From Candidatus Rifleibacteriota bacterium (GTDB lineage: Bacteria; Muiribacteriota; Ozemobacteria; Ozemobacterales; Ozemobacteraceae): a stretch of 64,000 nucleotides of DNA. The stretch is from assembly GCA_015233155.1 (NCBI GenBank), contig JADFYG010000014.1, forward strand, positions 517-64,516, read 5' to 3'. The translations under genes and the position numbers were made by a program. Positions 20,951-27,430 of the stretch are shown here, piece by piece (the stretch's first letter is position 1; each line of letters starts with the position of its first letter). The notes below the pieces were generated by a model. The model did no database searches. It saw nothing but the letters and a program-made list of their open reading frames with translations, and had not been told where the DNA came from.

Positions 20951-23422
<2,472 letters not shown>

Positions 23423-23434
23423 CGATGTCTCCAA

Positions 23435-24262
23435 TTAGTTGGCGCGGTCCCACGCGTGGGGAATTTCCTTGGGGAAACGCCATAGATAGGCACCGTCACG
23501 ATCTCCTGTGTACAGCCCCCCCGCGATATCTTCCCGATAACCTTTCCACCACGCATACGGTACCCGGGCAAAGCACTCACCCTGGGTGATGGTCTTGGTC
23601 TTTTTCATCGGTGTCTCGGACAATGCCTTGATCGCCGTCTCAAAAATCTCCCGTGCTGCGAGGTCGCTGGCCTGCTGGCTCAACTCGGCAAACATCATCT
23701 GCCGGAAGACTTTTCCGGCGCGATGCGTCGCATACCAGACATACTCCGCTGGGGTCAGATTCGAAAGTACAAGCATTTCGACCGGTCCGATCACAAGGTA
23801 AAATCGGGGACGGCGACCTTCTATTTCAGGCAGACCGGCCACGGCAGCAACCTGATTAGGTGCGAGGTTCTCAGCCGAAGCATGTCCCTTGAACTGAATA
23901 AGACGCTCGCCAGGCTGCATTTCGAGGAGGTGCCCACTCGACTTCGCCAGGTAAACATGTCCGTAGGCGGTCAGGGGAGTACAATTGAACGCGCCATTGG
24001 AAAGTGCCGTCTTCGTGCGCTTGCCGGTGCGAATGGCATCAAGGGCGGAGCGTGCATCAGCTCCGGCATCCCGCCAGCCGCCTTCATCCATGAACTGGAA
24101 GGCCGGACTGCCCTCCTTCAGCGCGAGATCAACTAAAACGGATTGCCCGTGGAACTTGCCGCTAGTCCCAGGACTGCGGTGCCAGGCCAATCCCGACATA
24201 CCCAGACTTGTGGCCGTGACAGCACCATTCGGCAGGCTCATTACCAGATTAACGTTTGACAT
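23435..24262 (-). CDS. Unknown protein preceding the pyrophosphatase gene
   Basis: A 275-residue protein I do not recognise. It starts MSNVNLVMSLPNGAVTATS after an AGGGAAG site and has no signal peptide or membrane segment. It contains a hydrophobic strand pair (RFYLVIGPVEMLVLSNL, about residues 155-171). Later come a basic helical region (AREIFETAIKALSETPMKKTK) and a Trp/Tyr-rich C-terminus ending HAWDRAN. The stop lies 12 nt before the hppA ATG, so the two genes are almost certainly co-transcribed and perhaps translationally coupled. Composition matches hppA rather than other neighbours, suggesting the two moved together. A regulatory or accessory role for the pyrophosphatase is conceivable but unsupported by any motif. 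Confidence 0.75.
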   Translation of the reverse strand: MSNVNLVMSLPNGAVTATSLGMSGLAWHRSPGTSGKFHGQSVLVDLALKEGSPAFQFMDEGGWRDAGADARSALDAIRTGKRTKTALSNGAFNCTPLTAYGHVYLAKSSGHLLEMQPGERLIQFKGHASAENLAPNQVAAVAGLPEIEGRRPRFYLVIGPVEMLVLSNLTPAEYVWYATHRAGKVFRQMMFAELSQQASDLAAREIFETAIKALSETPMKKTKTITQGECFARVPYAWWKGYREDIAGGLYTGDRDGAYLWRFPKEIPHAWDRAN

Positions 24263-24349
24263 CGAGACTTCCCTCTGTGAATTTTTTTTATAGGAAATTG
24301 CTTTTCCGACCCTAGAGGATAATCCCATCGATTTCGCAAGTCAAGAGTG

Positions 24350-24548: not shown

Positions 24549-25169
24549 TTGAAACGGTTTACTAATGCGTTGGGCGTATTTCTACTGGTTCTTCCATTGA
24601 TTTCGATGATGCCGTCTGTTGCGACGTGCGCAGTAACAGCGACTGCCAATCACTATTTCGCCGATTTGCAGGGCAGATATGCTTCGGTACAGGATGCCAA
24701 CATTCTGATCGAAGCCCTTCGGGAAAAGAACAAGAGGCCACCGGCAGTGGACGCAAGACCCATATGGTCTGTGTTATGGGCTTCGGCTACTCCGATGATT
24801 CCTTCCGGCCCTGGAATGACAAGCGATGAGGTATACCCTGACCCCGAAAAAGAATCGGAGACAGACACTCACAAGACAGTCAAAAAGCATGGCAAACATT
24901 CAACAAAACGGCACAAACATCATAAAGCCGCCAGTTCATCCCGACATAGCGGCAAACATGAGAAAAAAACGGCAAACGGAAACAGCTCCCTGACAGACAG
25001 CGGGTCCCCCGGAACCGCCAAACCCGTGACTCCTTCGCCATCGGTCAAGGCTAAAAAGGAAGCGAAACCACCCATGGCACCGAAGGCATCAAAAGCAGTA
25101 AAACAAACAGGGCCATCAAATCTTCCGAAAGTACCAAAAACAGTTAAACCAACAAAACCCATTAAATAA
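24549..25169 (+). CDS. Exported Lys/His/Pro-rich low-complexity protein
   Basis: A 206-residue protein with a signal peptide (KRFTNALGVFLLVLPLISMM, cleavage near TCA). A short globular part (about 30-95) has the FADLQGRYASVQDAN segment. A long disordered tail follows: first His/Lys-rich (KHGKHSTKRHKHHKAAS), then Lys/Pro/Ala-rich to the end (KTVKPTKPIK). TTG at 24549 is the start, with GGAGGGAAG at 24537-24545. The basic tail could bind polyanions such as LPS, peptidoglycan or nucleic acid, and the His clusters could bind metals; both are inference. No family recognised. Confidence 0.7.
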   Translation: MKRFTNALGVFLLVLPLISMMPSVATCAVTATANHYFADLQGRYASVQDANILIEALREKNKRPPAVDARPIWSVLWASATPMIPSGPGMTSDEVYPDPEKESETDTHKTVKKHGKHSTKRHKHHKAASSSRHSGKHEKKTANGNSSLTDSGSPGTAKPVTPSPSVKAKKEAKPPMAPKASKAVKQTGPSNLPKVPKTVKPTKPIK

Positions 25170-25453: not shown

Positions 25454-27430
25454 TCAAGAAGCCCTGATCAGATCAATGTAGTCTTTGGTGACCGGTTCAT
25501 TCGAAGCTGAACCGAACAATTCAAGCAACTCAGTCATGAGATTCGTTTTCGTTATCGAGTCTGAGCGGTTCCAGGTGCGGCTTTTGATCTCAAGAAATGT
25601 GCCGATATCGGGTTTGATAATGCGATCGATGTGAACAAAAAACTCTGTTTCCTTATATCGAATCAGATAGCGCAAACGGTCTTTCTCTATCTCGACTTCA
25701 CCAACCGGTTTGAAGTATTCACGATAGAAACGAAGACTGTTGACTGCCGGAGCAAAATATCGGCTGCGTGAAAGCAGAATTTCGTGGGAAACGTGCTCTT
25801 CCCGGACCTCGCCTATCAATGTAAGACGAGCACGGGCTTGGGTTACATTGCCGGTTTCATCTATAAACTCGTCTTCCCGATATCGTATACGCCCCTGAGA
25901 CGGATCTTCAAACAGGAAATACGTGTCAAACTCACGATAATGACGAGTGCGATCAATGGTGACGGCAGGCATTGCAAGTCCTTTGAGAATACTGGCGGAA
26001 TCATTGATGCGCACTTTAACCTGGATCTCGTAACTTTCCTCTTCCATGGCGCCGCCTATTGCAACCAGCTTGGACAGTATTGACTGTTCGCGCTTGGCCA
26101 GAAAAGCATCTATGCGTACAGCGAAACTCTGGCATTTTTCGAGCAGATCAGCTTCGTTAAGCGTTTTCAGCTTTCTGTCCCGCATGAGAAAAGCCCCCTC
26201 GACCATGACATCCGTAACATCGCTGGATTTCGATGCATAAACGAGCTGCGAATACGGGCTGTTCGTGTCACGCCGAAATCGTGGTGCATTATGAACAAGA
26301 TCTATGTCGACCAGAATCAGATCAGCGCGCTTGCCAGGCTCGATCGAACCGATTTTATCCGACATATGGATGGCACGCGCGCCTCCGCGAGTGGCCATCA
26401 TGATCACTGTGCGGGCCGGAAGAGATGTCGGATCGCCAGTGGTCAGTTTGCCCAAAAGGCTCGTCAGGCGCATTTCTTCAAACATGTCGAGATCGTTGTT
26501 CGAGGCCGGACCATCGGTACCGATACCCACATTTACATGAAAATCCAGCATCTTGGAAACCGGTGCACCACCAGAGGCAAGCTTCAAATTCGAAGACGGG
26601 TTGTGAGCCACACCGGCTCCGGCATGTGCCATGGCTCGAATTTCACCCTCGTCAATGTGAACGCAATGCGCGGCGATTACCTTCGAATCGAACAAATTCA
26701 GCTTTTTCATGTATGGAATTACCGGCATTCCATGAACTGCGCGTATTCCCTCAACTTCCTGACTGGTTTCAGAAAGATGAATCTGAAGAGGGACATCGAA
26801 TTCGACCGCCATCGCAACGCAAGCCTTGATAATTTCAGGAGTTGTCGTGTATGGTGCGTGTGGAGCTATGCTGGGCACGATCAGCGGGTGGTTTTTCCAT
26901 TTCTGAATGAATTTGCGAGCCAGGCTAAACGCTTCTTCATAATCGCGCGAATCCGGGGTGGGAAATTTGAGTATCGAGGATCCGCACACAGCACGCATAC
27001 CTGCTGCCGCTGTTCCTTCGGCGACGGAATCCTCATAATAAAACATGTCCGCAAAACAGGTGGTTCCACCGCGAATCATCTCGGCACATGCAAGCTGTGT
27101 TCCGAGACGAACGAACTCAGGGGATACGAACTCCCGTTCCACCGGCATCATATATCCCATCAGCCAGACATCAAGCCGTAAATCATCTGCAAGACCACGC
27201 ATCAGGGTCATTGGAACATGCGTGTGCGTGTTCACAAGGCCGGGCATGAGTATTTTGCCTTTGCAATCTACGGTTTGGCTTCCCATGAAGGCTGCGCGAA
27301 TTTCGGCATCCGGGCCTACGGCGACGATACTGTTGCCGGAAACGGCTACAGCGCCTGGATCAAATTGCCGGAACGAATCGTCGATCGTAAGAACCAGAGC
27401 ATTCGTAAAAAGGATATCAACCTGCTTCAT
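25454..27430 (-). CDS. MTA/SAH-deaminase-type amidohydrolase fused to a CYTH domain
   Basis: A 658-residue two-domain protein. Residues 1-440 form an amidohydrolase of the 5-methylthioadenosine/S-adenosylhomocysteine deaminase (MtaD) type. H69 and H71 (NTHTHVP), H218 with catalytic E221 (QIHLSET), H255 and D306 (GIGTDGPAS) fit the metal site. After a linker, residues about 465-640 read as a CYTH triphosphate-tunnel domain: EIQVKVRIND, REFDTYFLFED, a RIRYRED arginine strand, ARARLTLIG, DRLRYLIRYKE, HIDRIIKPDIGTFLEIKSR. CYTH proteins act on triphosphorylated substrates such as ATP or thiamine triphosphate. The join is in frame without a stop. ATG 27430 follows an AGGTGG site. The combination suggests coupled nucleoside deamination and polyphosphate chemistry, which is inference. 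Confidence 0.88.
   Translation of the reverse strand: MKQVDILFTNALVLTIDDSFRQFDPGAVAVSGNSIVAVGPDAEIRAAFMGSQTVDCKGKILMPGLVNTHTHVPMTLMRGLADDLRLDVWLMGYMMPVEREFVSPEFVRLGTQLACAEMIRGGTTCFADMFYYEDSVAEGTAAAGMRAVCGSSILKFPTPDSRDYEEAFSLARKFIQKWKNHPLIVPSIAPHAPYTTTPEIIKACVAMAVEFDVPLQIHLSETSQEVEGIRAVHGMPVIPYMKKLNLFDSKVIAAHCVHIDEGEIRAMAHAGAGVAHNPSSNLKLASGGAPVSKMLDFHVNVGIGTDGPASNNDLDMFEEMRLTSLLGKLTTGDPTSLPARTVIMMATRGGARAIHMSDKIGSIEPGKRADLILVDIDLVHNAPRFRRDTNSPYSQLVYASKSSDVTDVMVEGAFLMRDRKLKTLNEADLLEKCQSFAVRIDAFLAKREQSILSKLVAIGGAMEEESYEIQVKVRINDSASILKGLAMPAVTIDRTRHYREFDTYFLFEDPSQGRIRYREDEFIDETGNVTQARARLTLIGEVREEHVSHEILLSRSRYFAPAVNSLRFYREYFKPVGEVEIEKDRLRYLIRYKETEFFVHIDRIIKPDIGTFLEIKSRTWNRSDSITKTNLMTELLELFGSASNEPVTKDYIDLIRAS

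Follow-up and report, generated by a model that had tools for sequence, protein, structure and literature searches.

CYTH proteins, which share the triphosphate-tunnel (TTM) fold, are widespread, and the role of most of them is unclear. Archaeal TTMs such as SaTTM and PH1819 are single-domain proteins that carry the motifs ExExK and ExE. Martinez et al. 2015 (PMC4641920) describe metal 1 as positioning the substrate, and metal 2, whose ligands are the glutamates of ExExK together with the second one of ExE, as activating the water; they report that hydrolysis is strongly reduced in AtTTM3 when the glutamates of ExExK or the Glu for metal 1 are mutated, and in ygiF upon mutation of the matching residues. 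According to Vogt et al. 2021 (PMC8233210), metal 1 is bound by the first Glu of ExE and metal 2 requires the second.

Multidomain CYTH proteins are found, e.g., in Arabidopsis (TTM1 and TTM2, where the partner is kinase-like) and among the YgiF-type proteins, where it is a CHAD domain; TTM1 and TTM2 also lack ExExK and ExE (PMC8233210). In Vtc4p of yeast, site 1 is present and site 2 absent, and the acidic patch is replaced by basic residues (PMC4641920). A combination of a CYTH domain with an amidohydrolase or deaminase was not mentioned in the open-access literature searched. Here, we describe a bacterial gene that encodes one real protein composed of an adenosine-type deaminase and a CYTH phosphate-binding barrel.

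Gene and domain layout

The window, i.e., the whole stretch of 64,000 nucleotides that was analyzed, belongs to a 6.3 Mb draft genome in 185 contigs of a Candidatus Rifleibacteriota bacterium. The fusion gene (25454..27430, minus strand, as are all features within it) is a single frame of 658 codons, unbroken from 27430 to 25454 in the ORF and translation check, which starts with ATG and has an AGGTGG-like ribosome-binding site about 10 bases 5′ of this codon. A plus-strand reading of the same interval was rejected as it contains stops throughout. The protein is composed of an amidohydrolase domain (residues 1-440, 26111..27430), a helical linker (residues 441-466, 26033..26110), defined by its conservation and predicted helices, and a CYTH or triphosphate-tunnel domain (residues 467-658, 25457..26032). 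Its nearest named relatives in a genome scan are from Candidatus Ozemobacteraceae (Riflebacteria).

The deaminase domain

The N-terminal domain is, on the basis of sequence matches, a metal-dependent deaminase of the TRZ/ATZ–MTA/SAH type within the amidohydrolase superfamily. Residues 60-412 match Amidohydro_1 in Pfam (PF01979, E 1.3e-69), the top NCBIfam models are those of TRZ/ATZ hydrolase, chlorohydrolase, 5′-deoxyadenosine deaminase and MTA/SAH deaminase, and among solved structures the MTA/SAH deaminase 4f0r is the closest (E 1.2e-100, residues 11-440). All listed NCBIfam models of the MTA/SAH class score below their curated cut-offs (PRK15493, 295 of 779 bits; PRK07228, 5′-deoxyadenosine deaminase, 346 of 522; PRK09045, 468 of 540), so that the class is clear but the substrate is not. 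The earlier designation of the domain as an MTA/SAH deaminase, which was made from the sequence alone, thus stands at the level of the class, as reflected in the closest structure, but not for the exact substrate; this is probably a 5′-modified adenosine such as MTA, SAH or 5′-deoxyadenosine, or adenosine.

The metal ligands that the same sequence-only reading had pointed out, H69 and H71 of the HxH motif (27218..27226), H218 (26777..26779) and D306 (26513..26515), are all present, and the set is completed by E221 and the fourth active-site histidine, H255 (26666..26668). None of the six residues varies among the 145 full-length rows. These rows are the distinct strings from 228 loci, where certain genes had been retrieved more than once, i.e., twice with differing flanks, and they reach down to 44% identity; 93 fused rows are left after thinning by identity of the deaminase part (85%). 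The metal ligands and catalytic residues are also shared with the known MTA/SAH deaminases 4f0r/4f0s and TM0936 (1p1m/2plm), which belong to the same amidohydrolase family. The known enzymes end where the linker starts, whereas the fusion protein continues into the CYTH domain, and the fused form also differs from them at six specific positions within residues 87-102 (see below).

The C-terminal domain has a CYTH fold

When used alone, the C-terminal domain of the window protein has no match to CYTH in Pfam even at E<=1, where only chance families appear, and in NCBIfam it reaches cyaB at E 1.5e-4 with 21.6 bits, where the cut-off is 57.95. Its relatives are more informative: of 23, 7 match PF01928 at E<=1 (best 5.5e-8) and 18 match cyaB (best 1.3e-6). 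Sequence searches of the PDB returned nothing, at E<=1 with the domain itself and at E<=10 with the 23-row profile. An AlphaFold2 model of the domain (pLDDT 87.6, pTM 0.83) has as top Foldseek matches the class IV adenylyl cyclase of Y. pestis and the TTM of S. acidocaldarius. Comparison of this model with known structures using VIA-align gave the best match with 2een (Z 18.7, rmsd 2.3, 169 residues aligned), and further matches with SaTTM 7ns9 (Z 17.4, rmsd 2.3, 166 aligned) and the Y. pestis cyclase 2fjt (Z 16.2, rmsd 2.9, 167 aligned). A profile–profile alignment with 20 standalone CYTHs of the cyaB type, chosen from 30 loci by the pattern E/D-x-E-x-K, gave a probability of 96.1 and an E-value of 3.6e-9; an earlier alignment had given a probability of 0.1-1.2, with a mixed set of CYTHs from 23 of 28 loci as the template and a poor sequence as its first row.

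Taken with its relatives, the model and the structure comparison, the domain is a member of the CYTH/TTM superfamily with a predicted eight-strand tunnel fold. The assignment of the last ~200 residues to CYTH, as initially made, is confirmed in this way and by the profile–profile alignment, while the direct comparison with a CYTH HMM gave a divided answer, i.e., the window sequence fails to match in Pfam and 7 of 23 relatives succeed. The domain lacks the sequence marks of a class IV adenylyl cyclase (CyaB): it scores 21.6 bits against 57.95, the HF motif that precedes ExExK in these cyclases is absent from the window protein (residues 461-467), and their Ala in place of the second Glu of ExE is Lys here (616). 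The W/YxRxR motif of thiamine triphosphatase is also absent in the window protein, the one sequence checked for it, where residue 514 is Arg.

An altered second metal site

The two motifs that define TTM hydrolases are changed in the fused domain. In place of ExExK and the C-terminal ExE, all 145 rows carry ExQxK and ExK, i.e., E468-x-Q470-x-K472 (26015..26029) and E614-x-K616 (25583..25591), where the metal-1 Glu is retained and the metal-2 Glu is replaced by Lys. The remaining phosphate-binding residues are equally invariant (145/145), namely the RxR pair R516-x-R518 (25877..25885) and the basic residues K583-x-R585-x-R587 (25670..25684), as are the conserved CYTH aspartate D602 (25625..25627) and D502 and Y504 of the DxY motif. 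The RxR, KxR (K583, R585) and DxY motifs are thus as in the TTM hydrolases, and R516, R518, K583, R585 and D602 align with conserved phosphate-binding and structural residues of standalone CYTHs. The pocket is not wholly intact, as I539 occupies the position of the tunnel lysine in the LTFKG strand.

For comparison, a profile was searched over 60 loci with standalone CYTHs, taken from the same genomes and from related ones; 37 of the loci matched, and sequences with a gap were left out of the count at each column. Glutamate occupies the second Glu position of ExExK in 29 of 29 sequences and that of ExE in 28 of 29, and lysine occupies the tunnel position in 29 of 31. As 20 rows selected with the ExExK pattern had served to build the profile, the ExExK columns are not fully independent; the ExE count is freer in this respect. 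To judge from the aligned residues, the site-1 Glu is still present in the fused CYTH domain and two ligands of site 2 are gone, one of them having become a lysine. Archaeal TTMs, with the closest fold (Z 17.4-18.7 for SaTTM and PH1819), have RxR, KxR, the aspartate and the first Glu of ExE in common with it, but retain ExExK and ExE. In the standalone CYTH of the window's genome (L115, 1495-2022), N-x-E-x-K is found in place of ExExK and ExE is kept; this gene comes after a frame that looks transketolase-like by eye.

Distribution of the fusion

The genome scan yielded 356 relatives, 80 of which were looked at. Each of these 80 kept loci encodes the two domains together, with identities of 60-69%. 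They come from Anaerolineae and other Chloroflexota, among them the cultured Levilinea and Leptolinea, and from Ozemobacteraceae. The fusion of the two domains in one gene, as proposed from the sequence, is therefore borne out by the single frame and the recurrent full-length relatives, and a frameshift that joins two genes, or an assembly artefact, is rejected, as full-length fusions occur at 80 of 80 kept loci in two phyla.

A search of 301 Chloroflexota genomes with a profile built from the CYTH part gave matches in 62; 61 of the 62 matches lie in frames of at least 658 residues and the other is broken off by a contig end. The same profile gave 18 matches across 381 bacterial relatives, of which 15 are from the 24 genomes of the window's family and three have the coordinates of genomes already among the 62 Chloroflexota. 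A standalone gene for this type of CYTH domain was found in neither the 301 Chloroflexota nor the 381 relatives. The same fusion is thus present in many Chloroflexota and in the Ozemobacteraceae, the window's family, and is old and stable. In a tree of the deaminase part, where many forks are open and the rooting is unsure, sequences from Ozemobacteraceae are placed at two points inside Chloroflexota, which suggests that the fusion was transferred from the latter to the former.

The linker and a candidate contact surface

Linker residues 441-466 have a mean majority frequency of 0.81, compared to 0.78 for the deaminase and 0.65 for the CYTH part (88 rows), and in the full-length model (pLDDT 89.2) the linker is mostly helical, with helices at 426-448 and 451-459. 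Upon comparison with 15 unfused amidohydrolases, ten positions were specific to the fused proteins and six of these, D87, V88, G92, Y93, V97 and V102, which are fixed in fused deaminases and mostly different in unfused ones, fall within residues 87-102 (27125..27172), a helix by the active site. The cluster surrounds E98, presumably equivalent to the ribose-binding Glu of TM0936. The fused versus unfused comparison suggests residues 87-102 as a candidate place where the CYTH domain could act.

One genus of the window's family, g11, has the deaminase without a CYTH domain, and the protein ends at the linker (L020, L021 and L025 in genomes G019, G018 and G014; L025 is partial and includes the C-terminal part alone). 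In the deaminase tree (quick IQ-TREE), the fused proteins group together, with the unfused L020 and L021 nested among them, adjoining the fused Ozemobacteraceae with a support of 90. The g11 branch is long, 1.55 changes per column compared to a median of 0.21 for end branches, and its rows are of odd composition, so this placement may be wrong. Both proteins retain the six catalytic residues, but have diverged at V88, G92, V97, V102 and L322, positions that do not vary among the fused rows. In the simplest reading, g11 appears to have lost the CYTH domain, after which the deaminase diverged rapidly.

Possible functions of the CYTH domain

The reading that we favor, at somewhat short of an even chance, is that the barrel binds a phosphate compound, hydrolyzes it weakly or not at all, and thereby regulates the deaminase. 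The N-terminal domain would catalyze metal-dependent deamination of 5′-modified adenosines, while the CYTH barrel, which retains most of its positive lining and the metal-1 glutamate, could bind an NTP, PPPi, polyphosphate or a similar ligand. With two of the metal-2 glutamates lost (metal 2 activates the attacking water) and the phosphate pocket mostly kept, binding with little or no hydrolysis is to be expected. The binding signal may then reach the deaminase via the conserved helical linker, and possibly contacts at residues 87-102, opening or closing the active site, which would tie the recycling of SAM by-products to the cellular energy or phosphate status. From the fusion, the fold, the residue pattern and their conservation we infer ligand binding, loss of hydrolysis, allostery and the physiological role. 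In favor of a regulated deaminase are the invariant ExQxK and ExK together with K472, R516, R518, K583, R585, R587, D602 and E614, a CYTH domain that was never found alone in the genomes searched, the conserved linker and the divergence of the g11 proteins; against it, strict conservation is equally expected of an active enzyme with another chemistry, the tunnel lysine is replaced (I539), and the g11 branch may be misplaced. More tentatively, through its exchanges of metal-2 ligands (E to Q, E to K), the barrel could have turned from an enzyme into a sensor, making the protein an allosteric, CYTH-controlled deaminase in which disposal of SAM by-products (MTA, SAH or 5′-deoxyadenosine) answers to a triphosphate, polyphosphate or alarmone.

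The main rival to a regulated deaminase is a bifunctional fusion, in which the CYTH domain is itself catalytic but with a different chemistry, acting either like Vtc4p of yeast, a polyphosphate polymerase with metal site 1 only, or like plant TTM1 and TTM2, which have lost the motifs and act as pyrophosphatases in vitro. We consider this unlikely, even if the strict conservation of the altered residues is as in an active site. According to PMC4641920, metal site 2 is also missing in Vtc4p, where positions that are glutamates in TTMs are occupied by basic residues, and Q470 and K616 stand at two such places; AtTTM1 and AtTTM2, fused to a kinase-like domain and without ExExK and ExE, use pyrophosphate (PMC8233210). 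On the other hand, no VTC family is among the Pfam matches of the C-terminal domain at E<=1, the polyphosphate polymerase 3g3r is a distant fold (Z 9.5, well below bacterial and archaeal CYTHs) with a different partner domain, and no polyphosphate gene was seen beside the fusion.

A CYTH domain that serves as a structural or oligomerization module without a ligand is still less probable. The fold is known without catalysis, and Mediator chains (e.g., 7emf_R, Z 13.2) are among the fold matches; we take the Mediator subunit with a CYTH-like fold to be Med18. Yet the invariant tunnel residues E468, K472, R516, R518, K583, R585, R587, E614 and K616 are difficult to explain without a ligand. The lowest probability is assigned to a conventional triphosphate hydrolase that stays active despite the two changes, with deamination coupled to triphosphate removal: the fold is correct, and the phosphate-binding residues and the DxY motif (D502, Y504) are invariant, but Q470 and K616 replace the metal-2 glutamates in 145 of 145 rows, and the AtTTM3 and ygiF mutations reported in PMC4641920 strongly lower hydrolysis. 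Coupled hydrolysis in its simple form, one of two roles suggested originally, is unsupported because of these replacements; sensing by the CYTH domain, the other role, fits better given Q470 and K616, and a nucleotide is one candidate for the ligand.

This type of CYTH domain is strictly conserved and always tied to a deaminase, so that ligands of the barrel could be screened by means of the easily measured deamination. If regulation of the deaminase is indeed its role, the protein would represent a new bacterial link from phosphate or energy state to disposal of methyl-cycle waste, and a phosphate-sensing module of known fold.

Genomic surroundings and pathway context

The neighbors of the fusion gene in the window include a thioredoxin-like protein upstream and, further downstream on the same strand, a membrane H+-pyrophosphatase (20951-23434, minus; PF03030, E 3.1e-179). 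Directly upstream of the latter frame is a 297-residue protein without a Pfam match (23435-24328, minus), and a 206-residue protein that starts with a signal-like sequence and has a long tail rich in Lys/His/Ser/Pro, also without a Pfam match, is convergent with the fusion gene (24549-25169, plus). The window's neighbor genes are absent beside the fusion in 9 of 12 stretches from the family; the other three are uninformative, as a longer overlapping frame masked even the fusion. A cinA-type gene (one representative named by Pfam) is found in the flank of 51 of 88 Anaerolineae-type loci, and coaE in 14 of 31 loci of a more distant group. None of these neighbors, i.e., cinA, coaE or the window's own, points to the ligand. 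At one locus (L200, 8762-9862), a protein of the IF-2B/MtnA family, to which methylthioribose-1-phosphate isomerase belongs, is encoded three frames upstream on the opposite strand; equivalents are found at L197, L199, L225, L226 and L228, i.e., in six large-genome Chloroflexota including that of L200.

SAH hydrolase is present in 293 of 301 Chloroflexota genomes, including all 62 with the fusion, and in 23 of 24 genomes of the family. MTA/SAH nucleosidase scores above its cut-off in only 16 of the 301 Chloroflexota (4 of 62 fused, 12 of 239 unfused) and in one of the 24 family genomes (0 of 15 fused, 1 of 9 unfused). With the hydrolase nearly universal and the nucleosidase rare, a deaminase route for MTA or 5′-deoxyadenosine is plausible; the pattern is not peculiar to fused genomes, as neither enzyme separates these well from unfused ones among the 301 Chloroflexota and the 24 family genomes. 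The SAH hydrolase itself matches PF05221 as one stretch (~222-237 bits) in 11 genomes, all of them fused (G064, G077, G105, G114, G123, G139, G171, G179, G283, G328 and G356), and as two stretches in most other Chloroflexota.
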